Assembly (NCBI GenBank): GCA_020724265.1
Contig: DYHH01000001.1
Location: 130,674 to 194,673, forward strand
Source of the DNA: Melioribacter roseus
Lineage (GTDB): Bacteria; Bacteroidota; Ignavibacteria; Ignavibacteriales; Melioribacteraceae
Reading direction: 5' to 3'
Length of the DNA stretch: 64,000 nt
Part shown: in pieces, positions 42,568 through 55,984 of the stretch
Layout of the letters: the number at the start of each line of letters is the position of its first letter
Numbering within the stretch: position 1 is the stretch's first letter
Notes under the pieces: model-generated
What the model was told of the DNA's origin: nothing
The model's input: the letters and a program-made list of their open reading frames with translations, nothing else
The model's database searches: none
Made by a program: the position numbers and the translations under genes

Positions 42568-42657
42568 CTAAAAAAATGCGGATTGACAGGCGATAAGCGA
42601 TAGTGTTATTACCACCGCCCATGCAAACATGTATATTGTTAGTGCAAGCTTTCTCAT
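42568..42657 (-). CDS. 29-aa membrane miniprotein A
   Basis: ATG, 29 codons, stop TAG. Ribosome binding site AGAGGAA 7 nt upstream (42665-42671). The peptide starts Met-Arg-Lys, has a hydrophobic stretch 'LALTIYMFAWAVVITLSLIA' long enough to span a membrane, and ends CQSAFF. It is identical at DNA level to miniprotein B (46862) and shares length, basic start and the ending 'AFF' with the divergent miniprotein C (51323). Each lies just downstream of a T9SS surface-protein gene and, for A and B, upstream of a terminator. Too short for standard gene callers. No known family recognised. Confidence 0.65.
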   Translation of the reverse strand: MRKLALTIYMFAWAVVITLSLIACQSAFF

Positions 42658-42747: not shown

Positions 42748-45700
42748 TTATTTAAGAAGAATCATCTTCTTCGCTTGCACAAATTCGCCTGCAGTGATCC
42801 TATATATATATGTCCCGCTCGATACCTTTATACCGAAATTGTTTTCTCCGTTCCAATTTACATTGTGTCTGCCTGCTTTTACTTCTTCGCTTAACAATGT
42901 CTTTACTTCTTGTCCCAACATATTGTATATCTTTATCGTTACAAAGTTTGCTTCCGGTAACGAATAATTTATCGTTGTTGTCGGGTTGAACGGGTTCGGA
43001 TAATTCTGCTCTATGCTGTAACTTAGTGGTAGTTCTTCGTCTCCATCTACACTGGTGACCGACCCTACCTTGAAATTACCTGTGTTTGAATAATTCGATG
43101 TACTGCCGCTTGTCTTACTTCTTACTCGCCAGTAGTATTCACCCTCTGCCAAATCCGTAACTTGTGAATTTAACTGTGCTATGTTGTCATACTTCGTTGC
43201 ATTGCTAAAGTCCGGATTTGTTGATAACTCAACTTCGTACGAGAGGGCTGATTGTGATTGAGTCGGTAAATACCAAGATAACGTAGGACTATTTGTTCCT
43301 ATCGTTACTCCTCTGGCTGGTGAACCGACTAACGGCATTACCGCACTTGCTCCGGCATCTACTGTGAACTTCCATACAGATGACGGATTCTCCCATGTTG
43401 CGCCTCCGTCATACGATAACTCTACATACCACCAATATGTAGCTCCTTCGGTTAACGGTCCGCTTACTGTTGCACTGGTTGTCGTTGTAACTACTGTCTC
43501 TACGTTTGCATTGAATAACTCGGTGTTGCTATAGGTTACTCTAAAATGAGTTACTCCCAGCATAGACCCGGTTACATACCAATAAAATGTCGGCGACTTT
43601 GTTAATATTATGCTGTTATTTGCCGGGTTTGTTAATAATATATTTGCATCGTTTCCGGCTATTGTGAATGAACTGTATGAGAAATCTCCATGAGCAGGTG
43701 GATTAACTCCATCATAGAGAGCAACTGCCCAGTAATAAGTCTCACCATATTCTAACGGACTGGTAAAGGTGTAGAAAGTTTCATTGATGTCTGAAGTTGT
43801 GTAACTACCGTCATAAGTAGTTGCCCAATTACCGGAATTTGATCCTTTCTGCCAACGTACAATGAATGAAGCCCAGCCAAGTGTTGAGCCGTCTACCCAC
43901 CAACTTAATGTTGGTGTATCAGTATAAACTGTCGGATTACCTACAGGCCAGCTTAAAACTACCGAACTGCTAAGACCACCGGCAATACTGAATTCTGCCG
44001 TTGTTGAAAATATTTCATCAGGACCTGTTACGTATGCTCTTACTCTCCAATAATAATATTCTCCAGCAACCAAACCACTACCTTGTACATATAAATCAGT
44101 TGTTGGTCCGAAAGTTTCATCTATTGTTCCAAACGTATTATCCGTACTTACCTGTACTTCAAAATTAACATTTGTATTTGCACCGCCAATCCACCAATAA
44201 AATGTTGGTGCGGTTGTATAAATCTCTAACCCACCTGTTGGATATGACGGATTTGCTGCTGTAGGAACTAAACCCGGTGCATCATATGTTTTAAATGATG
44301 CTATTGATGAATAATTAGTCTCTAAGCCGTATGTTGTTCTTACCTGCCAATAATATGTTGTTGATGGGTCTAAATCAGTCCCGATATAAACATACATGTT
44401 TGAACCGGCACTAATTGTACCCAACGGATTTGATAAAACACCTAAGGCTTCTGTCGGATCATCCGAATATATTACTTCAAATGTAGCTCCAGGTTCCCAT
44501 TGCATCGTGTACCAATAAAATGTTGGGTCTAAATAATAAATCTCCAAACCGCCGGTTGGGTATGATGGGTATGCTTTTACTGCACCGCCCTTTGTTGTGA
44601 AAGAAAATACGGTTGAATACTTCACGACTCTGTCATCAAAATCAAATTCTCCAGGTGTTGAGCCGTCATCGTAATATGCACATACTCTCCAATAAAATTT
44701 AGATCCGCCGGATAATCCATTTACTGCTTTATACAAATCCGTAAGATTATCGAACCAAAATACAGGATTAGCTCCTTGAGCTGCATCATTTTCTAAATCA
44801 GCCCATTGAACATAATCAGGAGCCAATGGCTGTTCTATAACTTGTAGGAAAAATTTAAGCGAACCAACTGCTTGATTCAGACCCCATGTAAATGTAGTAG
44901 GATCATAAAGATATAATTCCACACCATTACCAGGATTCCACAAATTGACAGTAACATTTGCAACAGTAGTAAAATACCATGCCTCAGAAGGATATTCAAA
45001 AGCACCGACTTCTGCAATTACTCTCCAATAATATTTTGTATTATTATTTAAAGGTATTTCTTCAAAATCAATGCCCGTAAATTTGTGACTATCAGTTCCG
45101 GAAGCAACAGTATGTTCCAATACTAAATCACCAACAAAATCAGTTGAGGTAGCAATTTGAATTCTGTATCCATCTGCTCCGCCATCAATCCACTCAACTG
45201 TAGGTTTTATTGAAACTCCAGTAATTGAATTGACAGGGGAAACAAGTGTCGGTACTACATCAAATGTCCAAGGACCGTTTGATGAAGTAGCCGGTGAATT
45301 ATCTAAAGGAGTATTGGTATCATCAATTGTTACATCCCAGGTATAAGTTCCATAATCTAAATCTAACGGGAAAGTATAAGGACTTGTTTCGGTATTATTA
45401 TATGCAAAACCATTATTACCTGATACATCCAATGTATAAGTTACATTTGAAACCGCAGCAGAAGTACTCCATGTAAGTGTCGGTGTTCTATCTGACGAGC
45501 TAAAACCGTCTGCAGGAGAGTCAAGTGTTAAATCAGGGAAATCTGTTTTAAAATCTTCAGTAGCCGAAGCATTATCTTCAGCCCCTTTTGTAGCTCTTAC
45601 CCTTACATCATAATTGGTATTATGCTCTAAAGCAGAGCCTACAGTATGAGGTGAAGTTGCACCGGAAGCTGAATACTCTAATGTTCCGAAACCGTCATCA

Positions 45701-46491
45701 CTAATTTCAACAATAAATGTAATACCGGTACTATTGCCATCTTGAGTCCATTCAATATCAGGTGTTACAGAATGATTAACCGGACTACCTGTTGGATTTG
45801 TAATCACTGGTGTTGCAATTAAGGTCGTAAAAGATACTTCCGCATAGTCTTCGGTTGAAGAAGAAGCATCAGTTACTGCAACAACTGCAAAATAATCCTC
45901 ATTATACGTGTTTGATGCTGTTGTTGTATATGGTGAGGTTTCACCTAGAGATGATTCAACATCACCCGCATGACCACTTCCGGTATTATCATTTATATAG
46001 ATATCATAATCATACGGTGGAAATCCACCTGTTGCATCAGTCCATGAAACATCTGGATTAAGAGCTGACGGAGATGCGGGTGGTGTGGTTGTGCCTGCTG
46101 TTAGAGCGGGTCCAGTACTTATTGTGATAGCCGCTGAAAGATTACCAGGATCATCCGAAGTATTTTCCAGAGTAAATGTATAAACTGTATTGTCGTCTAA
46201 AGTAGTAGCCGGGACATCAACTGTGTATGAAGGTCCGCCTCCACTTGAAATAAGCCCACTGACAGTTTTATCTGTACCTGCCGAGCCAGCCAATTGTCCA
46301 GGTCCAACTACAGCAGTAAACACTACTTCATAAGTGCTTGGACCATTATTGGCTGCATCGGTGAAAGTTATTGTTAAGATTGCATTCTCGTCAACCAAAG
46401 TATAATTTGTAGGTGAAGTTATAGATGGTTGAGCAAGAATTAAGCTAGTAAACAAAAGCAAACTAGCCAGTAACGTAATTAGTTTTTTCAT
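42748..46491 (-). CDS. T9SS-sorted FN3-like repeat surface protein 1
   Basis: 1247 aa. Signal peptide ends near 'LILAQ'. About ten FN3/Ig-like modules follow, with recurring 'P.F.W......Y.v.is', 'L.....YYWRV.a' and 'W.F.t' strands. The C-terminal ~90 residues are the T9SS type A sorting domain ('NYPNPFNPTTTINYSLPEAN', 'IYNMLGQEVKTL', 'SGTYIYRITAG', 'KKMILLK'), so the protein is exported across the outer membrane and attached to or released from the surface. The last ~264 residues are identical to those of surface protein 2. The leader RNA at 46492-46628 precedes it; the ribosome binding site GAGGG lies in a hairpin loop 7 nt from the ATG. Confidence 0.88.
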   Translation of the reverse strand: MKKLITLLASLLLFTSLILAQPSITSPTNYTLVDENAILTITFTDAANNGPSTYEVVFTAVVGPGQLAGSAGTDKTVSGLISSGGGPSYTVDVPATTLDDNTVYTFTLENTSDDPGNLSAAITISTGPALTAGTTTPPASPSALNPDVSWTDATGGFPPYDYDIYINDNTGSGHAGDVESSLGETSPYTTTASNTYNEDYFAVVAVTDASSSTEDYAEVSFTTLIATPVITNPTGSPVNHSVTPDIEWTQDGNSTGITFIVEISDDGFGTLEYSASGATSPHTVGSALEHNTNYDVRVRATKGAEDNASATEDFKTDFPDLTLDSPADGFSSSDRTPTLTWSTSAAVSNVTYTLDVSGNNGFAYNNTETSPYTFPLDLDYGTYTWDVTIDDTNTPLDNSPATSSNGPWTFDVVPTLVSPVNSITGVSIKPTVEWIDGGADGYRIQIATSTDFVGDLVLEHTVASGTDSHKFTGIDFEEIPLNNNTKYYWRVIAEVGAFEYPSEAWYFTTVANVTVNLWNPGNGVELYLYDPTTFTWGLNQAVGSLKFFLQVIEQPLAPDYVQWADLENDAAQGANPVFWFDNLTDLYKAVNGLSGGSKFYWRVCAYYDDGSTPGEFDFDDRVVKYSTVFSFTTKGGAVKAYPSYPTGGLEIYYLDPTFYWYTMQWEPGATFEVIYSDDPTEALGVLSNPLGTISAGSNMYVYIGTDLDPSTTYYWQVRTTYGLETNYSSIASFKTYDAPGLVPTAANPSYPTGGLEIYTTAPTFYWWIGGANTNVNFEVQVSTDNTFGTIDETFGPTTDLYVQGSGLVAGEYYYWRVRAYVTGPDEIFSTTAEFSIAGGLSSSVVLSWPVGNPTVYTDTPTLSWWVDGSTLGWASFIVRWQKGSNSGNWATTYDGSYTTSDINETFYTFTSPLEYGETYYWAVALYDGVNPPAHGDFSYSSFTIAGNDANILLTNPANNSIILTKSPTFYWYVTGSMLGVTHFRVTYSNTELFNANVETVVTTTTSATVSGPLTEGATYWWYVELSYDGGATWENPSSVWKFTVDAGASAVMPLVGSPARGVTIGTNSPTLSWYLPTQSQSALSYEVELSTNPDFSNATKYDNIAQLNSQVTDLAEGEYYWRVRSKTSGSTSNYSNTGNFKVGSVTSVDGDEELPLSYSIEQNYPNPFNPTTTINYSLPEANFVTIKIYNMLGQEVKTLLSEEVKAGRHNVNWNGENNFGIKVSSGTYIYRITAGEFVQAKKMILLK

Positions 46492-46628
46492 AAAAGCACC
46501 CTCATGCTTTGTGAATAAAATAAACTTTGGCTGGGTTTCAATATTTATAAATTATTAATTCTGTTTCCCTCAAAACAGATTCAATTTCCCTTGAAAATTG
46601 AGAAAGAAGATAATTCTTTTTTGGCTGG
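46492..46628 (-). promoter_or_regulatory. Structured 5' leader RNA, copy 1 (two CCAGCC boxes, two UGAGGG hairpins)
   Basis: In minus-strand order: box CCAGCCAAA (46620-46628), hairpin with 7-bp stem (46581-46601), hairpin CTGTTT-TGAGGG-AAACAG (46561-46578), box CCAGCCAAA (46526-46534), hairpin AAAGCA-TGAGGG-TGCTTT (46493-46510), then the ATG. The loop of the last hairpin holds the GAGGG ribosome binding site. The two other leaders keep boxes and loops while the distal stem bases change in pairs. No known riboswitch class recognised. Confidence 0.75.
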
Positions 46629-46634
46629 TGATAA

Positions 46635-46663
46635 AATATAAGAGGTATTTTTATATAAGTCAA
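46635..46663 (-). promoter_or_regulatory. Sigma-70 promoter of surface protein 1
   Basis: TTGACT (46658-46663), 17-bp spacer, TATATT (46635-46640). The expected start site is at the first CCAGCC box. Confidence 0.8.
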
Positions 46664-46795
46664 TAATTATTTTAGATATTATATCTTATTACCAGTTATA
46701 TACATTTTCTTTATATCTTCAGTCCAAGAAGCAAAAATATTTGATTATATGCAAGGGACTTAATGTGCCGTAGCTCACGTATAAAATCTTATACA

Positions 46796-46825
46796 AAAAA
46801 AAAGCTGCCCAACTCTGAGCAGCCT
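46796..46825 (-). terminator. Rho-independent terminator after miniprotein gene B
   Basis: Same stem as at 42502-42531 apart from one base (GCTGC / GCAGC core with T run). It lies 36 bp after the miniprotein B stop. Confidence 0.82.
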
Positions 46826-47836
46826 TACTGAAATCTATTTAGTAATTATTTCTTACTTTGTCTAAAAAAATGCGGATTGACAGGCGATAAGCGATAGTGT
46901 TATTACCACCGCCCATGCAAACATGTATATTGTTAGTGCAAGCTTTCTCATTTTATTTTCCTCTCTTTTTCAATTTTTTTATTCATTATTAATTTGTGCG
47001 GCTCGCTGACCGCACTTAAATTTTACAAAAAATAAGTAGTATTATTTAAGAAGAATCATCTTCTTCGCTTGCACAAATTCGCCTGCAGTGATCCTATATA
47101 TATATGTCCCGCTCGATACCTTTATACCGAAATTGTTTTCTCCGTTCCAATTTACATTGTGTCTGCCTGCTTTTACTTCTTCGCTTAACAATGTCTTTAC
47201 TTCTTGTCCCAACATATTGTATATCTTTATCGTTACAAAGTTTGCTTCCGGTAACGAATAATTTATCGTTGTTGTCGGGTTGAACGGGTTCGGATAATTC
47301 TGCTCTATGCTGTAACTTAGTGGTAGTTCTTCGTCTCCATCTACACTGGTGACCGACCCTACCTTGAAATTACCTGTGTTTGAATAATTCGATGTACTGC
47401 CGCTTGTCTTACTTCTTACTCGCCAGTAGTATTCACCCTCTGCCAAATCCGTAACTTGTGAATTTAACTGTGCTATGTTGTCATACTTCGTTGCATTGCT
47501 AAAGTCCGGATTTGTTGATAACTCAACTTCGTACGAGAGGGCTGATTGTGATTGAGTCGGTAAATACCAAGATAACGTAGGACTATTTGTTCCTATCGTT
47601 ACTCCTCTGGCTGGTGAACCGACTAACGGCATTACCGCACTTGCTCCGGCATCTACTGTGAACTTCCATACAGATGACGGATTCTCCCATGTTGCGCCTC
47701 CGTCATACGATAACTCTACATACCACCAATATGTAGCTCCTTCGGTTAACGGTCCGCTTACTGTTGCACTGGTTGTCGTTGTAACTACTGTCTCTACGTT
47801 TGCATTGAATAACTCGGTGTTGCTATAGGTTACTCT
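46804..47836. repeat. Direct repeat, copy 2 (about 1033 bp, pairs with 42510-43542)
   Basis: Read side by side with 42510-43542 (offset 4294 bp), I see no mismatch from the terminator stem through miniprotein B and the C-terminal part of the surface-protein gene up to 47836. Single-base differences then start and the two genes diverge. Coding and intergenic DNA are equally conserved, which points to recent duplication or gene conversion rather than selection alone. Confidence 0.85.
46862..46951 (-). CDS. 29-aa membrane miniprotein B
   Basis: Identical to miniprotein A (42568-42657), including the AGAGGAA site; it lies inside the 1-kb direct repeat. It starts 90 bp after the stop of surface protein 2, with a GTGCGG/CCGCAC hairpin between them, and is followed by a terminator. 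Its identity to A reflects recent duplication, so only miniprotein C gives independent evidence for coding. Confidence 0.65.
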   Translation of the reverse strand: MRKLALTIYMFAWAVVITLSLIACQSAFF

Positions 47837-50800
47837 GAAATGAGTTACTCCCAGCATAGACCCGATTACATACCAGTAAAATGTCGGCGACTTCGTTAAT
47901 AATATACTGTTGTTTGCTGGATTTGTTAACGATATACTAGCATCATTTCCGGCTATAGTGAAACTTCCTTCAGCAAAATCTGAATATGGTCCTCCGGGAT
48001 GATCATGTGCTGCAACTGCCCAGTAATAAGTCTCACCATATTCTAACGGGCTGGTAAAGGTGTAGAAGGTCTCATTCATATCTGATGTTACATAGATAGA
48101 GTCATTTGCCAATACTTGAGTTAACCATTGTGCAGGTGTTTTATCTTTTTTAGACCAAACAACTTTATAATGGAACCAACCCAAAGTAGAGCCTTCCATA
48201 TACCATGAAAGTGTTGGGGTATTTGTATATACCGTCGGATTACCTACAGGCCAATTAGCTACCGGGTAACTATTTAAACCACCTGTAACACTAAATTCCG
48301 CAGTTGTTGATAAAACGTCAGGATGCGGAGCTTTTGAGGATCTAACTCGCCATAAATATGATTGGCCAGGTAATAATCCACTACCTTGAATATATGTATC
48401 TGTAGTGGGTCCAAATGTTGTTGGCCATGTTGTTCCGCCGTCAGTACTCAACTCTACTGTAAAGTTAACATCAACATTCATTGCGCCTATCCACCAATAG
48501 AAATATGGTGCTGTTGTGTATATCTCCAATCCTCCGGTTGGATAAGACGGATTTGCTACTGTAGGTACTAAACCCGGTGCGTCATATGTTGTAAAGGTTG
48601 CTATTGATGAATAGTTTGTCTCAATTCCATATGTTGTTTCTACTTGCCAGTAATATTGTGTTGATGGGTCTAAATCTGTCCCGATATAAACATACATGTT
48701 TGAACCGGCACTAATTGTACCCAACGGATTTGATAAAACACCTCCGACTTCTGTCGGATCATCTGAATATATTACCTCAAATGTAGCTCCCGGCTCCCAC
48801 TGCATTGTATACCAATAAAATGTTGGGTCTAAATAATATATTGTTGCTCCGCCTGTTGGCCACGATGGATATGCTTTTACTGCGCCGCCTTGCGTATCAA
48901 AATAAAATACTTGTGAATACTTAACAACTCTATCTTCATGATCAAAGGCGTTTGAAGTTGAGCCGTCATCATAATATGCAACTACTCTCCAATAATACCT
49001 TGTACCGCCGGTTAATCCATTTACATTTCTCCAAGAATTGGATTGATGGTCATAGAAAAAGTCAATACTTCCCGGTGTTGCAATTTCGGCATCTACATCT
49101 GCAAACCATTCCGCAGTTGTTGGTTCTGTACCGGCAGCTTTAATTTGCAGATAATATTTTAGTGCACCTTGTGTTTGGCTTATTCCCCAAGTAAACATTG
49201 CCGGATCATAAGCATACAATTGCATTTGATGACCTGGATTATACAAACTAATATTAATATTAGTAACTGTCGTGAAAAAATTGACTTCGGATTCATAAAT
49301 CGGATCACTATTACCATCCAAAGCAATAATCTGCCAGTAGTACTTTGTATTATTTGCAAGCGGGAAATTCGGTATGTTTTCATTAGTATTATATGTTAAA
49401 ACAGTACCGACATTTTCGTCGAATAATGGTGCTGATAGATCACTATTAATGCTAATTATTAGTTGATATTCAATTGTTGCGGCAGGACCAGTTTTTAATT
49501 CACCCCATAGAAATGTCGGTTCAATTGATACACCGGTTATACTGTGAATTGGTTCTTGTAATCCTTCCCATTCATAAATTACATAATCGGTTATAGTAAC
49601 ACCGGTACCGCCAGGGTTAGAAGCATGAGCTGGACCTGATGCATCTCCCCAATTATTATTCTCATAAGCTAATACATAGTAAGGACCGCCATTGTCATTA
49701 TCAATACCTAAACCTGGATTAACTCCACCGCCATCAGTATTAAAAAAGTTACAATTTTTTACAACGATTCCTGAATAATCTCCGTCAACATTGATAGCAT
49801 AATCTAACGCTGAATCAAAATTGAATTCTAAACCATCAATTGTAACATTGTTTGCTGCGATAGTAATTGCTGGTGAAGCATTAGTAATGATAGGATCGTT
49901 AAAGCCCTTGAATACTAACTCCTTGTCAACAACAAAAGAATTAAATGGTCCGGGTCCAATAACAAAAATTGCATCGCCGTCTAATACATCAATATCATCA
50001 ATTAGATCTTGAATACCGTCAGGATTGGTACCGTTTACATAAAAGGTCCACGGTACATCAGGGTCTCTTGGTTCGTCAGGGTCGTTACCGTACCATGGTG
50101 AGTATAAAACATCATCGGATACTTCACCACCTGAACCTGTGGGATTTGTCGTTGCATGATAAGGCCCAGTAGCATGACCCCACCAATTCCATTCCGCATT
50201 TACAGTTTTCCCTGTAATATTATTAATTCCACCAAGAATTTTATTGTTTTCAATTAAATTATCTAGATTTGCTTCTCCACGTGCACCAGTACGTACATAT
50301 ATACTTAATGCATCATCGCTAAAAGTGTTGTCGGTGATAGTGTTACCGGTTACTTCATAAATGTCCATTCCACGATTATCAACACCGGCCGGAACATTAA
50401 AAACATTATCGGTTATAATGTTGTTATTCGTTAAAAGATTTAGACCTCTTGGACTGTTGAATTCATTATCCGTAACGCTCACAACACCGTCTAATGATGA
50501 AGCAGAAATTAAGCTAGCTGAGGTTGTATTAAAAACGTTGTTGCTAATATTTGCGGCAGTCACTCTCGCATTATCAATTGAGAATCCACGTGAACCTGTT
50601 AAATTACTGTTTGTCAAGGTTAAGGTGTGTTCCGTACCGGGATTTCCGGCAACAGAAATTAAGTAATACGTACTAGTATAGTGGATAATAGAATTTGTTA
50701 TAACTACATCACCTTGAACTCTAATAGCCTGTATAAAAGAAGTACTTTCAAACCGTAACCCATCAAAAGTAAGATCTTCTGGCCAACCTGATGTGCCACT

Positions 50801-51109
50801 TCCAGTTGTGATCGTTCCCACTACAATTGTTTCACCTGATGTTGTATTGGCATCACGAGCAGCACCAACACCTGCAGAAACACCATGCTGTGCTCCCCTA
50901 ATTGTTAGACCATCCTTTGTATTTACATTAAGGTTTTCAGTATATGTTCCCGATGGAACATCAATTACATCTCCTGGACTAGAAGCATCAATTGCATCTT
51001 GAATTGTAGCAAAACTCCCAGCGCCATTAATTGTGATTTGCGCATTAAGTCCAATTAGACTTAAGAAAAAAATTAGTGGGACTAACCGTAGTAGTAGTTT
51101 GAGTTTCAT
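47042..51109 (-). CDS. T9SS-sorted beta-helix and FN3-like repeat surface protein 2
   Basis: 1355 aa. Signal peptide 'LLLRLVPLIFFLSLIGLNAQ', then a right-handed beta-helix region (about 30-500: 'FATIQDAIDASSPGDVIDVP', 'LTIRGAQ', many 'N.i..N.f' rungs), FN3-like modules, and the same C-terminal sorting domain as protein 1. An in-frame ORF extends upstream to 51190 but would run through the conserved leader RNA. The ATG at 51109 fits the signal peptide and the GAGGG site, and is the correct start. Beta-helix folds often bind or cleave polysaccharide; no catalytic residues could be assigned. Confidence 0.87.
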   Translation of the reverse strand: MKLKLLLRLVPLIFFLSLIGLNAQITINGAGSFATIQDAIDASSPGDVIDVPSGTYTENLNVNTKDGLTIRGAQHGVSAGVGAARDANTTSGETIVVGTITTGSGTSGWPEDLTFDGLRFESTSFIQAIRVQGDVVITNSIIHYTSTYYLISVAGNPGTEHTLTLTNSNLTGSRGFSIDNARVTAANISNNVFNTTSASLISASSLDGVVSVTDNEFNSPRGLNLLTNNNIITDNVFNVPAGVDNRGMDIYEVTGNTITDNTFSDDALSIYVRTGARGEANLDNLIENNKILGGINNITGKTVNAEWNWWGHATGPYHATTNPTGSGGEVSDDVLYSPWYGNDPDEPRDPDVPWTFYVNGTNPDGIQDLIDDIDVLDGDAIFVIGPGPFNSFVVDKELVFKGFNDPIITNASPAITIAANNVTIDGLEFNFDSALDYAINVDGDYSGIVVKNCNFFNTDGGGVNPGLGIDNDNGGPYYVLAYENNNWGDASGPAHASNPGGTGVTITDYVIYEWEGLQEPIHSITGVSIEPTFLWGELKTGPAATIEYQLIISINSDLSAPLFDENVGTVLTYNTNENIPNFPLANNTKYYWQIIALDGNSDPIYESEVNFFTTVTNINISLYNPGHQMQLYAYDPAMFTWGISQTQGALKYYLQIKAAGTEPTTAEWFADVDAEIATPGSIDFFYDHQSNSWRNVNGLTGGTRYYWRVVAYYDDGSTSNAFDHEDRVVKYSQVFYFDTQGGAVKAYPSWPTGGATIYYLDPTFYWYTMQWEPGATFEVIYSDDPTEVGGVLSNPLGTISAGSNMYVYIGTDLDPSTQYYWQVETTYGIETNYSSIATFTTYDAPGLVPTVANPSYPTGGLEIYTTAPYFYWWIGAMNVDVNFTVELSTDGGTTWPTTFGPTTDTYIQGSGLLPGQSYLWRVRSSKAPHPDVLSTTAEFSVTGGLNSYPVANWPVGNPTVYTNTPTLSWYMEGSTLGWFHYKVVWSKKDKTPAQWLTQVLANDSIYVTSDMNETFYTFTSPLEYGETYYWAVAAHDHPGGPYSDFAEGSFTIAGNDASISLTNPANNSILLTKSPTFYWYVIGSMLGVTHFRVTYSNTELFNANVETVVTTTTSATVSGPLTEGATYWWYVELSYDGGATWENPSSVWKFTVDAGASAVMPLVGSPARGVTIGTNSPTLSWYLPTQSQSALSYEVELSTNPDFSNATKYDNIAQLNSQVTDLAEGEYYWRVRSKTSGSTSNYSNTGNFKVGSVTSVDGDEELPLSYSIEQNYPNPFNPTTTINYSLPEANFVTIKIYNMLGQEVKTLLSEEVKAGRHNVNWNGENNFGIKVSSGTYIYRITAGEFVQAKKMILLK

Positions 51110-51240
51110 ATAAGCACCCTCATGCTTTGTTAATGTAAAATTTTGGCTGGGTTTAAATATTTTTTCTAATCTTTCTCCTGCTTCCCTCAAAGCAGATTTG
51201 ATCTCTCGATTGATGCGAGAATATATTCTTTTTTGGCTGG
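51110..51240 (-). promoter_or_regulatory. Structured 5' leader RNA, copy 2
   Basis: Boxes CCAGCCAAA at 51232-51240 and 51142-51150, hairpin TCTCG-(7 nt)-CGAGA (51204-51220), distal hairpin CTGCTT-TGAGGG-AAGCAG (51178-51195), proximal hairpin AAGCA-TGAGGG-TGCTT (51112-51127) ahead of the ATG. Compared with copy 1, the distal stem changes T to C and A to G at paired positions. Confidence 0.75.
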
Positions 51241-51248
51241 AGGCTAAA

Positions 51249-51276
51249 AATATACACTTGAGAATTATAATACAAG
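51249..51276 (-). promoter_or_regulatory. Promoter of surface protein 2 (-10 clear, -35 weak)
   Basis: TATATT at 51249-51254, at the same distance from the leader box as in the other two copies. The -35 region is only CTTGTA at 16-bp spacing. Confidence 0.5.
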
Positions 51277-51322
51277 TACAATTCGGATATTTTAACCTAT
51301 TATGTTCCAGTTCACTTTATAT

Positions 51323-51412
51323 TTAAAAGAAAGCGGTCTGTGCTGCATACAAAGCCGAGCCAATAACAATCACCATTATTGTAAACAACACATACGAAAA
51401 TTTACTTTTCAC
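51323..51412 (-). CDS. 29-aa membrane miniprotein C
   Basis: GTG start, 29 codons, stop TAA. AAGGAG lies 8 nt upstream (51421-51426). Met-Lys-Ser-Lys start, hydrophobic core 'FSYVLFTIMVIVIGSALYAA', end QTAFF. It has exactly the length of miniproteins A and B with only 9 of 29 residues identical, mostly at the C-terminus, so conservation is at protein level. It starts 46 bp after the stop of surface protein 3. No terminator is visible before the leader of surface protein 2. Confidence 0.65.
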   Translation of the reverse strand: MKSKFSYVLFTIMVIVIGSALYAAQTAFF

Positions 51413-51458
51413 TTGTAAATCTCCTTACAATTATTTTGGTATTAATCAATAATCAAAT

Positions 51459-53993
51459 TTATTTTAAAAGAATCATCTTTTTTACTTCAGTATAATTACC
51501 GGCAGTAATTCTGTACAAGTATGTTCCGCTTGAGACTTTTTGACCGTAATTATTATCCCCTTTCCATGTTAATTTATGATTACCGGCATTAACTTCTTCG
51601 TGTATGAGTGTTTTTACTTCGCGACCAAGCATATCATAAATTTTAATTGTAACATATGATACTTCCGGTAAAGAATATTTTATTGTTGTAACCGGATTAA
51701 AAGGATTGGGGTAATTTTGTTCAAGACTGTAAGACAGTTTTAATTCTTCATCTTCTTCGATACTTGTTACAGAGCCAATTTTAAAATTAGCCGGTGTAGA
51801 ATATGATGAAGATTCGCTGTTTGTTTTACTTCTTACACGCCAAAAATATTCACCTTCATTCAACCCGGAGAGCTGAGCGTTTAGTTGAGCAATGTTATCA
51901 TAAACAGTTGCACTGCTGAATTCAGGATTACCGGCAATTTCAACTTCATAAGTGAGTTGAGATTCAGATTGAATAGGAAGATACCAGGAAAGCATCGGTG
52001 AATCGGAATCAATAGTTACACCTCTTGCGGGCGAACCGGCGAAAGGAACAACAGCACTTGCACCGGGATCAACTGTAAATTGCCACGTCGGAGATGCTAT
52101 ACTATAAGTCGAACCTCCATCATATGAAACCGAAACATACCACCAATAAGTAGCACCTGCTTGCAAGTCATCAACAATTTGAACATTTGTTGTAATTGTT
52201 TCCAATTCTTCATATAGAGTAAATAATGAAGTTTGGCTGTATGTAACTTTGTATTTATCAATGCCTAAAGCAGAACCGCTCACATACCAATAAAATGTCG
52301 GCTTAGTTGTATAAACTACACTGTTATTTTCAGGATTGGTTTGTTCAATAACTGCATTACCTCCGGCAAGTGTAAATGAGTTAAATACATAATCACTATG
52401 AGAAGGTAGAGTGACACCATCATATAATGCTACTCCCCAATAATAAGTTGAACCGTAACTCAAAGGATCATTAATTTCGTAATATGTTTCATTAATATCC
52501 GCAGTCTGATAAGAACCTGTAGTAGCACCAGCCCAATTACCGGGAGCAATATCTTTGTTCCATTTTACAATGAATGAATCCCAACCAAGTGTAGAACCTT
52601 CAACATACCAGCTCAAAGTTGGAGTATTGGTGTAAATTAAAGGATTCCCAACGGGCCAATTCAAAACAACCGTGCTGCCCATTCCACCGGCAACTGAGAA
52701 TTCTTCGATATCGGATTCTATAGTTGTTAATCCGTCAGTTGAAGAAACTTTCCACTGATAGCCAGTACCCGGGGTTAAACCACCAATTTGCAGATAAGTG
52801 TCAACAGTTGTTCCCATACTTACAAAACCACCGCCATCATCTACAAAAACTTCGAAAGTTAACGTACCGCTGTTGTATGCTTCTATATACCAATACATTG
52901 TGGGAGATGTTGTATAAATTGTAATATTATCAGTCGGATAACTTAAAGTTGGTTTTGTAGGCACAATTCCCGGTGCATCATAAGTTGTAAACTCAGCAAT
53001 ATCGGAATAATTTACTGCAGCACCGTTAATTGTTTTTACCTGCCATAAATAAGTAGTTGAAGGATCCAGGTCAGTATTTTGTTCCGCAAAAGTATTTGAA
53101 CCGGCTGATAAAGGTGCAGCGCCGTCGTCATCTAACTTGGAAAGATCACCGCCGTTATCGCCATCTTTAACAACATATACTTCGAATTCAGCATCAGGAT
53201 CATATTGGTTAGTGTACCAATAGTAAGTAGGGGTTAAATTATAAATAATATTTCCTCCAACCGGCCATGAAGGATAAGCTTTTACTGCACCTCCTTGGGT
53301 ATCAAATTCATAAACAGCAGAAAACTTGACGACACGGTCATCAACATCGAACGATCCTGAAATAGACCCGTCATCAAAATAAACTATCACACGCCAAAAA
53401 TATTTAGTTCCCCCTGTTAAACCACTTACACTTTTTGAGGTGTTTCCTAAATTATCGAAAGCAAAATCGGGGGTTTCCCATTCAAGTGCTGTTGGTAAAC
53501 TAACGGAAGATATAATTTGTAAATAAAATTTAAGACTGCCGACAGAAGAACCGAGGTACCATGAAAATTGAACGGTAGAAAAAGGATAAATTGCAGCGCC
53601 ATCAGAAGGATTAGATAACGTGATATTTATATTAGAAACGGTTGTGAAGAAATACGCATCAACGACAGGTTCAATATTATTCGCACCTGCTCCTGAAGCA
53701 TCGGCAATTCTCCAATAATACTTTGTGTTGTTATCTAAAGGAGAATATCCTAAATCAGCAAACCCGGATTCGGTAACTTGATATTCTGTCAATGCATTTA
53801 CGTCAACTTCCATAAAGTCGGTTAAGAAGTCATCGGAAGTAGAGATTTGAAGAAAGTAAGCACCGGAAGCTGTCCATTGGAAATATGGTAATATTGAAAT
53901 TCCGGTTATGCCATTATCGGGTTTTGGTTGGGCTAAAACCAGATTTATAGAAAATAAAATCGAAAGGATATAAAAAGTCGTTATCTTTTTCAT
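51459..53993 (-). CDS. T9SS-sorted FN3-like repeat surface protein 3
   Basis: 844 aa. Signal peptide ends near 'INLVLAQ'. About seven FN3-like modules, then the T9SS type A sorting domain ('NYPNPFNPVTTIKYSLPEVS', 'IYDMLGREVKTLI', 'SGTYLYRITAGN', 'KKMILLK'). It is the shortest and most diverged of the three but shares long module-level similarity, for example 'GGAVKAYPSWPVGG' versus 'GGAVKAYPSWPTGG' in protein 2. First gene of the three-gene cluster, with its own strong promoter. Confidence 0.88.
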   Translation of the reverse strand: MKKITTFYILSILFSINLVLAQPKPDNGITGISILPYFQWTASGAYFLQISTSDDFLTDFMEVDVNALTEYQVTESGFADLGYSPLDNNTKYYWRIADASGAGANNIEPVVDAYFFTTVSNINITLSNPSDGAAIYPFSTVQFSWYLGSSVGSLKFYLQIISSVSLPTALEWETPDFAFDNLGNTSKSVSGLTGGTKYFWRVIVYFDDGSISGSFDVDDRVVKFSAVYEFDTQGGAVKAYPSWPVGGNIIYNLTPTYYWYTNQYDPDAEFEVYVVKDGDNGGDLSKLDDDGAAPLSAGSNTFAEQNTDLDPSTTYLWQVKTINGAAVNYSDIAEFTTYDAPGIVPTKPTLSYPTDNITIYTTSPTMYWYIEAYNSGTLTFEVFVDDGGGFVSMGTTVDTYLQIGGLTPGTGYQWKVSSTDGLTTIESDIEEFSVAGGMGSTVVLNWPVGNPLIYTNTPTLSWYVEGSTLGWDSFIVKWNKDIAPGNWAGATTGSYQTADINETYYEINDPLSYGSTYYWGVALYDGVTLPSHSDYVFNSFTLAGGNAVIEQTNPENNSVVYTTKPTFYWYVSGSALGIDKYKVTYSQTSLFTLYEELETITTNVQIVDDLQAGATYWWYVSVSYDGGSTYSIASPTWQFTVDPGASAVVPFAGSPARGVTIDSDSPMLSWYLPIQSESQLTYEVEIAGNPEFSSATVYDNIAQLNAQLSGLNEGEYFWRVRSKTNSESSSYSTPANFKIGSVTSIEEDEELKLSYSLEQNYPNPFNPVTTIKYSLPEVSYVTIKIYDMLGREVKTLIHEEVNAGNHKLTWKGDNNYGQKVSSGTYLYRITAGNYTEVKKMILLK

Positions 53994-54106
53994 GGAAGCA
54001 CCCTCATGCTTTGTTAAAAAAAATTGGCTGGATTTTTAAGAAATTTATATTCGATCCCTCAATCGAACTTAATTTCAAAGTAAAAATAGGAACTCTTTTT
54101 GGCTGG
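53994..54106 (-). promoter_or_regulatory. Structured 5' leader RNA, copy 3
   Basis: Boxes CCAGCCAAA (54098-54106) and CCAGCCAAT (54023-54031), distal hairpin TTCGAT-TGAGGG-ATCGAA (54050-54067), proximal hairpin AAGCA-TGAGGG-TGCTT (53996-54011) ahead of the ATG. The distal stem shares almost no bases with copies 1 and 2 yet pairs perfectly and keeps the loop. Confidence 0.75.
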
Positions 54107-54114
54107 TAAGTGTG

Positions 54115-54143
54115 AATATATAGGTTTAGAAATCCTCTGTCAA
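54115..54143 (-). promoter_or_regulatory. Sigma-70 promoter of surface protein 3
   Basis: TTGACA (54138-54143), 17-bp spacer, TATATT (54115-54120): near-perfect consensus, with the start expected at the leader box. Confidence 0.85.
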
Positions 54144-54327
54144 GCATTTTTTTTAAAATATTATTTTTTTAATAGCAAATTACAATTGTAAACACAATTG
54201 ATTCATTCAAAATTGGAAGATGGAAAGATGGAATTAAGGAAGAATGGAAAGAATGTTCGCACATAATCAGCAATGATGTAAAGATAATTTTTCCAATTAG
54301 TTTAGAACAGAAAGAATAACTGAAGAC

Positions 54328-54598: not shown

Positions 54599-55984
54599 AT
54601 GACAACTCCTTCAGCTCCGAGAGAACAATGGGGTTCTAAGTTAGGATTTATATTAGCTGCAGCCGGTTCTGCTATTGGACTTGGTAACATCTGGAAATTT
54701 CCATACGTGGTCGGAGAAAACGGCGGATCTGCATTTATAATAATTTATTTGTTGTGTACAGCAATAATCGGTTTACCGGTTTTAGTTGGTGAAATATTAA
54801 TTGGTAGAACAACACAAAGAAATCCAGTTGGAGCTTTTAGAGCTTTAAGCGGTTCTCGGTTTTGGGCTGGCGTTGGTGGTATGGGTGTTGCTGCCGGATT
54901 TTTAATCTTATCTTTTTATGCTGTCATTGCAGGATGGTCGGTAGGATATATTTATGAATCTTTTTCAGGAGACTTATTTAAGTATGCCGATCCAACTAAA
55001 GCTGCAGTCCATTTTGAAGAGTTGACCCACGATGTTGTCTGGATTATCGGTTACTTTGGATTTTTTATGATACTTACAATGGGTTTAGTTTATGCCGGTG
55101 TTCAAAAAGGTATTGAGCGCGGAAGTAAAATAATGATGCCCGTTTTATTCTTATTGTTGATTTTTGTTATGATAAGAGGTATAACGATGGAAGGTTCGGG
55201 TGCGGGTTTAGAATTTCTTTTAAAACCTGACTGGTCACATGTGAGCGGTCAAACATTTTTGATTGCTTTGGGACAAGCTTTCTTTACACTTAGCATGGGT
55301 ATGGGTGCAATGCTAACATATGGTAGTTATATGTCGAAAAAAGATAGTGTCCCCTCTTCTGCACTTCAAATACTTTTGCTTGATACTGCAATTGCGTTAG
55401 TTGCAGGTATTGCAATTTTTACATCTGTTTTTGCAACCGGATTAGATGCTGCCGCAGGTCCCGGATTAATATTTCATACATTGCCGGTTGTTTTCATGAA
55501 AATGCCAGGCGGTGAAATCTTTGGACCGATATTTTTTATTTTACTTTCTATTGCAGCTTTAACTTCCGCTATTTCTTTATTGGAAGTTATTACTGCATAC
55601 TTTGTTGATGAAAAAGGATGGACAAGACATCGAGCTGTGATTGTTTTTGGCAGCGTTACTTTTTTAATTGGTATTCCTTCCGCATTATCATTTAATGTTT
55701 TATCCGATACAACAATTTTCGGTTTGAACTTTTTTGGTCTTGTTGATTATTTGACGGCTAATATTATGCTTCCGCTCGGTGGATTGTTGATAGCGGTTTT
55801 CATTGCATACGTTTGGAAATTTGACAAAGCACTTATTGAATTGAAAAACGGTGCTGAAAGATTGTTCAATAAAAATCCCTTACTTATAACATTATGGCAA
55901 ATATTTATTAAATTTTTTGCACCCGTATTAATTTTCTTGGTACTTCTTCATTCAACAGGAATTTTAGATGTTCTCGGATTATAG
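54599..55984 (+). CDS. Sodium:neurotransmitter symporter family (NSS/SNF) transporter
   Basis: 461 aa, 11-12 membrane helices, LeuT fold. The N-terminal 'WGSKLGFILAAAGSAIGLGNIWKFPYVVGENGGSAF' carries the sodium and substrate site of helix 1; 'ALGQAFFTLSMGMGAMLTYGSYM' is helix 6. Members take up amino acids with Na+. The ATG has no ribosome binding site close by, although AAAGGAG occurs 65 bp upstream. The next gene is 37 bp away on the same strand and also encodes a sodium symporter. Confidence 0.9.
   Translation: MTTPSAPREQWGSKLGFILAAAGSAIGLGNIWKFPYVVGENGGSAFIIIYLLCTAIIGLPVLVGEILIGRTTQRNPVGAFRALSGSRFWAGVGGMGVAAGFLILSFYAVIAGWSVGYIYESFSGDLFKYADPTKAAVHFEELTHDVVWIIGYFGFFMILTMGLVYAGVQKGIERGSKIMMPVLFLLLIFVMIRGITMEGSGAGLEFLLKPDWSHVSGQTFLIALGQAFFTLSMGMGAMLTYGSYMSKKDSVPSSALQILLLDTAIALVAGIAIFTSVFATGLDAAAGPGLIFHTLPVVFMKMPGGEIFGPIFFILLSIAALTSAISLLEVITAYFVDEKGWTRHRAVIVFGSVTFLIGIPSALSFNVLSDTTIFGLNFFGLVDYLTANIMLPLGGLLIAVFIAYVWKFDKALIELKNGAERLFNKNPLLITLWQIFIKFFAPVLIFLVLLHSTGILDVLGL

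Follow-up and report, generated by a model that had tools for sequence, protein, structure and literature searches.

A lineage-specific leader element with repeated sense-strand boxes ahead of surface-protein genes in Melioribacter roseus and its relatives

What is kept in the leader that stands ahead of three surface-protein genes of Melioribacter roseus, and what might act on it? We analysed a window of 64,000 nucleotides from this organism (GCA_020724265.1, contig DYHH01000001.1, positions 130,674 to 194,673 of the forward strand), in which three minus-strand leaders, W46 (46492-46628), W51 (51110-51240) and W54 (53994-54106), precede three large proteins exported by the type IX secretion system (T9SS). 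A first-pass annotation had read in all three the same order of box, two hairpins, second box and third hairpin, and the six CCAGCCA boxes and six TGAGGG sites that it placed there are indeed present. It had taken the leader for a cis-acting switch. Our analysis upholds a cis-acting leader whose predicted 5' end falls at the first box, while the twin UGAGGG hairpins did not hold up as its sensing core: as judged from sequence comparison, the persistent core is a sense-strand box, (C/A)CAGCC(A/G)AA. We regard it as near-certain that the leader element is real and lineage-specific; its mechanism and function we infer.

The box, its strand and its two places

The leaders were gathered by searching the genomes of the host family, apparently Melioribacteraceae, with 753 residues of the W54 protein, and by reading the upstream DNA of the matches. 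This query found homologs in 31 of the 79 family genomes, at 51 places. Homologs without a recognisable signal-peptide start were excluded, being six segments in the family set (L075, L076, L091, L098, L101, L108) and, among the matches listed, 13 in a second set; one leader shorter than 150 nucleotides was dropped from each. The family set of 50 leaders comprises 46 found by cargo homology and four found by motif (L070, L071 twice, L073-4563), and a scan of named genomes added 24 further leaders. A larger set of 82 includes six from the motif model described below (L289, L290 twice, L293, L295, L296) and omits L294. The record of L160 is also that of the tandem leaders of G147, and L292 duplicates L159; each was counted once. 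One genus, g2, gave a single homolog (G148) at the homology threshold, and its boxed leaders came via the motif pattern.

On the sense strand, CCAGCC occurs in 27 of the 46 homology-found family leaders (38 copies), in 31 of 50 when the four motif-found leaders are added (45 copies), and in five of the 24 further leaders (7 copies), whereas its antisense form GGCTGG is found in none of these 74. Dinucleotide shuffles gave a mean of 0.7 copies for the set of 50 and 0.3 for the set of 24, with a maximum of 3. Within the window CCAGCCA is likewise enriched, with 11 found against 2.9 expected. The shorter form CAGCC is present in 45 of the 82 leaders; of 93 box copies, 91 have A or G directly after it and 79 have A in the position beyond.

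The copies favour two places. One coincides with the predicted 5' end of the transcript (box 1), and one to four more stand before the ATG, typically near -42 (box 2 and its additional copies): CAGCC starts 35-50 nucleotides upstream of the ATG in 34 of 82 leaders, and extra copies reach out to about -82. The leader thus carries direct sense-strand repeats before the start codon, up to four in number, as in G038 and G051, where four boxes lie upstream of the Shine-Dalgarno sequence; an antisense copy is absent from all 82 leaders. Spacings of less than 45 nucleotides between neighbouring boxes (n=24) fall at 6-7 nucleotides in seven cases and at 13-17 in eleven, with no helical phasing.

The placement of box 1 follows from its promoters. 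As the first-pass annotation had held, a sigma-70 promoter puts the start at the first box in at least two copies: those of W46 and W54 match the sigma-70 consensus, 6 and 8 nucleotides upstream of box 1, and W51 has the TATATT -10 element with a poor -35. A scan for such promoters finds 29 in the region overall against 29.5 expected. Taking as box 1 the far box with the best promoter score, a choice that favours leaders with several boxes, we found that in 24 of 28 leaders a promoter with at least 9 of 12 matches lies 5-11 nucleotides before it, and that the spacer measures 17 nucleotides in 23 of the 24; because of this spacing, box 1 should lie within about five bases of the expected start. 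Box 2 has such a promoter in only 2 of 37 leaders, which resembles the rate at random positions (106 of 1600), so that box 2 is not a second start and its role as a second promoter is ruled out. By eye, the leader L124 of G048, several hundred bases long, has two tandem promoter-like sites, with CCAGCC where each would be expected to start transcription, and one more box close to the ATG.

The features of the three window loci are as follows.

46635..46663, minus strand: promoter TTGACT-17-TATATT of W46, 6 nucleotides upstream of box 1
46622..46628, minus strand: box 1 of W46, CCAGCCA, at the predicted 5' end
46560..46579, minus strand: distal hairpin of W46, TCTGTTT-TGAGGG-AAACAGA, supported by covariation
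46528..46534, minus strand: box 2 of W46, a motif match
46494..46509, minus strand: proximal hairpin of W46, AAGCA-TGAGGG-TGCTT, containing the Shine-Dalgarno sequence, register genus-specific
42748..46491, minus strand: T9SS cargo of W46, 1247 residues, from domain matches
42568..42657, minus strand: 29-residue membrane microprotein 3' of W46
51234..51240, minus strand: box 1 of W51, promoter score 7/12
51177..51196, minus strand: distal hairpin of W51, TCTGCTT-TGAGGG-AAGCAGG, supported by covariation
51144..51150, minus strand: box 2 of W51, a motif match
51112..51127, minus strand: proximal Shine-Dalgarno hairpin of W51
47042..51109, minus strand: T9SS cargo of W51, 1355 residues, from domain matches
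46862..46951, minus strand: 29-residue membrane microprotein 3' of W51, with the same residues as that of W46
54115..54143, minus strand: promoter TTGACA-17-TATATT of W54, 8 nucleotides upstream of box 1
54100..54106, minus strand: box 1 of W54, at the predicted 5' end
54049..54068, minus strand: distal hairpin of W54, GTTCGAT-TGAGGG-ATCGAAT, supported by covariation
54025..54031, minus strand: box 2 of W54, a motif match
53996..54011, minus strand: proximal Shine-Dalgarno hairpin of W54
51459..53993, minus strand: T9SS cargo of W54, 844 residues, from domain matches
51323..51412, minus strand: 29-residue membrane microprotein 3' of W54, with a GTG start

Hairpins between the boxes

When the three window leaders are aligned, their common features are the two CCAGCC boxes, a GAGGG in the distal hairpin and a near-identical block before the ATG, ACAAAGCATGAGGGTGCTT, which is the same in all three except for one letter at its start near W46; its exactly shared part, AAAGCATGAGGGTGCTT, occurs 3 times against 0.15 expected with up to three mismatches allowed. 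TGAGGG by itself occurs in the window no more often than expected (14 against 14.75), and the folding energies of the three whole leaders are unremarkable (z-scores of -1.10, -0.36 and -0.85).

The distal hairpin is well supported within the genus. The first-pass annotation had seen its pairing kept while the bases change, and the observation is borne out: across W46, W51, W54 and two leaders of G002, a genome of the same genus, pairing holds in 34 of 35 cells, and both sides have changed in six of the seven pairs. Shuffles did as well in 0 of 500 trials for the covariation score, 3 of 500 for pairs changed on both sides and 18 of 500 for pair types, and slid registers pair at 37-57% only. In genus g2 (G004, G153, G155) the same loop letters sit on a different stem, CCGC-GAGGG(C/T)-GCGG, and the register is displaced by one to two bases, which is why we counted covariation within the genus only.

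Beyond these genera the picture changes. Between the boxes GAGGG is found in 8 of 23 two-box leaders against 0.72 expected from base composition, all in two genera, and homologous boxed leaders in eight genomes of other genera (G013, G009, G011, G019, G037, G050, G157, G158) keep one or more boxes and are without GAGGG from the first box to the second; G019 has an additional one after box 2. The first-pass annotation had itself named homologous leaders without the loops as evidence against its reading, and in part this is what is seen. Twin UGAGGG hairpins are thereby ruled out as the leader core, the distal GAGGG hairpins being confined to two genera, where we regard them as a local addition displaying a Shine-Dalgarno-like sequence. 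The proximal GAGGG is the Shine-Dalgarno sequence itself, which in other leaders reads GAGGGTG, GAGGTG or similar, and the GTG shortly upstream of many ATGs is putatively part of this region and not a start. The proximal hairpin is identical in four genus leaders, so that base change does not probe its pairing, and is broken in the second leader of G002. Its window register, with five pairs from the loop, occurs only in those four of the 37 leaders with GAGGG before the ATG, which rules it out as a conserved switch. The proposed pairing of the CCC of the proximal box (box 2) with a GGG, here that of the Shine-Dalgarno sequence, is not kept either, since W54 and the second G002 leader have UCC.

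What lies between the boxes is a variable, often hairpin-forming stretch. With box 1 taken for folding as the far box with a -10-like hexamer where present and otherwise as the first box, the inter-box RNA of the 23 two-box leaders is stabler than its shuffles (mean z-score -1.40; 16 below -1 and 10 below -2).

Reach of the leader and its cargo

The proteins behind W46, W51 and W54 carry Por_Secre_tail, FlgD_ig and Ig_Rha78A_N domains, which fits T9SS cargo and agrees with the annotation, sorting-tail domains being present in all three. The leader is not a general feature of T9SS cargo: the genome of the window has 120 sorting-domain matches, 117 of them over the cut-off, and pattern searches, including a pattern scan of the other cargo leaders, found the leader at only three genes. 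A general T9SS export signal is ruled out by these numbers.

A sequence-only model spanning box 2 to the ATG, built from 29 leaders, was run on 391 genomes of the class, themselves taken from a larger group. Of its matches 27 have E<1e-3, and every one of these lies in the family, 20 at model loci and seven at new ones; five of the new loci have box 1 as well as near-ATG boxes, L290+5867 has near-ATG boxes only, and L294 has a single box and masked letters. The best match outside the family has an E-value of 0.002, and 81 genomes there have only weak matches at E 0.002-0.1, more than the E-values predict, these values being rough. Strong matches to the model thus stay within the family.

Most of the cargo belongs to one family of large T9SS-exported Ig/fn3-like surface proteins, together with a few other secreted proteins, and the first 11 leader-bearing proteins are homologous beyond the T9SS tail. 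Two loci picked up by the pattern of promoter plus box go beyond this: a T9SS cargo of G156 that falls outside the main family and combines cohesin, dockerin and sorting domains has three CAGCC in its leader, and in G014 a single box stands on a gene for a DUF4402 protein. These two cases show that the leader does not simply travel with one gene family.

Behind each of the three window cargo genes lies a gene for a membrane microprotein of 29 residues. Two of these microproteins have the same residues, MRKLALTIYMFAWAVVITLSLIACQSAFF, and the third, 3' of W54, is divergent. A relative, often ending in ALYACHVTYFS or similar, follows 24 of the 47 distinct cargo genes with enough flank, and cargo genes without a detected microprotein may include divergent forms.

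By eye, GCTAGT...ACTAGC in the signal-peptide codons of W46 and of G002 (L036, L037) could pair, as could GTTAGT...ACTAAT in those of W51. At window positions 54599-55984, on the plus strand, a gene of the sodium:neurotransmitter-symporter family stands divergent to the cargo array, and this neighbourhood is kept in G002 and G013.

What may read the boxes

The first-pass annotation recognised no described class in these leaders, and we concur: Rfam has no match in the window at gathering score, and at E<=5 only four weak matches in 46400-54300, none within the leaders. RNA-level control of T9SS cargo, or such a leader, was not found in the open-licence papers searched. The Chlorobi and Bacteroidetes leader motifs are computationally found leader RNAs from related phyla (PMC2864571), and those that have Rfam entries do not match the window leaders; the available part of a flavobacterial transcriptome study with structured 5' regions names no such box element (PMC9723704). 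The leader element is accordingly new to the sources searched and without a match in Rfam.

Nearest in kind, going by the accessible portion of the source, are the TAACTGA heptamers of Beggiatoaceae, direct repeats ahead of start codons that were proposed as sites for post-transcriptional regulators of the S1, Csp or Csr families (MacGregor 2015, PMC4679880). Short direct repeats ahead of start codons are common to both systems. As that portion describes them, the heptamers lie no more than several nucleotides from the start codon, seem to take the place of the Shine-Dalgarno sequence and occur at genes without a functional pattern (PMC4679880), whereas the box leader has another sequence, an extra copy at the predicted 5' end, a Shine-Dalgarno sequence and mostly one surface-protein family as its cargo.

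What our comparison establishes at the level of sequence is the box with its strand and its two preferred positions, the predicted promoter at box 1 and the covariation of the distal hairpin within the genus. Strand, the A/G rule, the two places, the repeats and predicted openness together suggest that single-stranded RNA is what is recognised, most probably by an RNA-binding protein; the boxes are predicted to be unpaired with a mean probability of 0.68 against 0.41 for other G/C positions, a difference partly due to composition. Our leading reading, which we put at somewhat short of an even chance, is that of a 5' leader RNA in which a putative RNA-binding protein at the boxes sets the translation or the lifetime of surface-protein mRNAs. 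Such a protein would recognise the boxes, predicted to be single-stranded, at both ends of the leader; the hairpins between them would draw the two ends together, and its binding would set the translation or lifetime of the cargo mRNAs.

Besides the part that composition plays in box openness, several observations weigh against this reading. CCAGCC is missing from 19 of the 50 family leaders and CAGCC from 37 of the 82, and L069, L071+7659 and L290+5867 have boxes near the ATG only and lack one at the start. Taken by itself, the pattern of promoter plus box is weak, with 25 matches against 17 for the reversed pattern in 79 genomes, about 15 of the 25 heading plausible leaders by eye, and the inter-box z-score is above 0 in 4 of the 23 two-box leaders. 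The leaders also share kinship, so the counts are not independent and nominal significance overstates the case.

If the reader of the boxes were instead a small RNA with a UU(U/C)GGCUGG seed, the freedom between A and G after CAGCC, seen in 91 of the 93 boxes, would be explained by A-U or G.U pairing to one U, and G002 does have, in L255 on the reverse strand near 400, an exact box complement, TTTGGCTGG, which follows the stop codon of a T9SS cargo gene and precedes a terminator-like hairpin. We consider this explanation unlikely. All exact TTTGGCTGG sites outside leaders were read, 31 in G000 (the genome of the window) and 18 in G002: five loci are shared by both genomes, all of them within open frames of at least 450 nucleotides, and only the sites in L225 and L255 lie in frames shorter than 200 nucleotides, neither with a counterpart in the other genome. 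GGCTGG followed by a T run gave at least 238 matches against at least 181 for the reversed pattern (nine genomes, overlaps counted), with G013 standing out at no fewer than 32 against no fewer than 7. A conserved box-complementary small RNA was not found by exact patterns, the site reading having covered G000 and G002.

That the leader is passive, its 5' box, hairpins and Shine-Dalgarno-like loop stabilising an abundant mRNA or aiding ribosome standby with no regulator, is an account in which we likewise put little trust. Comparable elements are the STAB-SD elements of Bacillus and the ompA-type 5' stabilisers, which have a structured 5' end or an upstream Shine-Dalgarno-like sequence that does not initiate translation. 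The structured inter-box RNA, the GAGGG shown in the distal hairpin of two genera and the position of box 1 at the predicted 5' end would all suit a passive leader, and the strong promoters and the tandem copies of the genes would fit abundant products. Such a leader fails, however, to explain one to four repeats near the ATG with the following base held to A or G, and those stabilisers, unlike the box leader, have no repeated CAGCC(A/G)A boxes.

Were the boxes DNA sites of a transcription factor, the overlap of box 1 with the predicted start site would be expected, but the box is non-palindromic and always on the sense strand, its spacings lack helical phasing, and box 2 is tied to the ATG and not to a promoter; we hold this to be quite improbable.

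Leaders regulated by CsrA/RsmA have purine-rich hairpin loops with G runs, one of them at the Shine-Dalgarno sequence, and carry A(N)GGA in unpaired stretches or loops. The box leader resembles them in its G-run loops, one likewise at the Shine-Dalgarno sequence, and a CsrA gene is present in 63 of the 79 family genomes, including that of the window (G000:C25:55267-55425). AGGGA stands at the distal hairpin of all five genus leaders and is mildly raised overall, with 7 in 23 leaders against 2.7 in shuffles, whose maximum was 8. The recognition motif of CsrA, as the available text of one source has it, is GGA (PMC4679880), and this is depleted here (14 against 31.2) and missing from 14 of the 23 two-box leaders; A.GGA occurs about as often as chance predicts (10 against 12.2), the GAGGGTG Shine-Dalgarno sequences and the g2 hairpins lack GGA, and CsrA has no match in G038, G051, G154 and G008, although their leaders carry boxes. 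What is conserved is CAGCC(A/G)A and not A(N)GGA, AGGGA being a feature local to the genus. Canonical CsrA control is hence disfavoured, though within the genus it keeps a small chance, and control of this type through the GAGGG hairpins is very improbable.

A metabolite riboswitch built on the twin hairpins we find hardly credible, since, despite the covariation of the distal hairpin in the genus, the hairpins differ between genera, no compact conserved aptamer core is seen and Rfam is negative; nothing was found that points to the small-molecule ligand once suggested.

We thus return to a protein that would bind the boxes. In its fuller form, which we advance slightly more tentatively, this reading would describe a new RNA regulon in which a sequence-specific regulator, spanning a hairpin spacer, links the box at the 5' end to the one beside the ribosome-binding site and thereby sets the supply of surface proteins to the T9SS. 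If that is true, a new sequence-specific RNA-binding regulator may exist in this lineage. The box would offer a short, testable handle on the control of T9SS cargo, and the surface protein and the membrane microprotein behind it make up a recurring gene pair.

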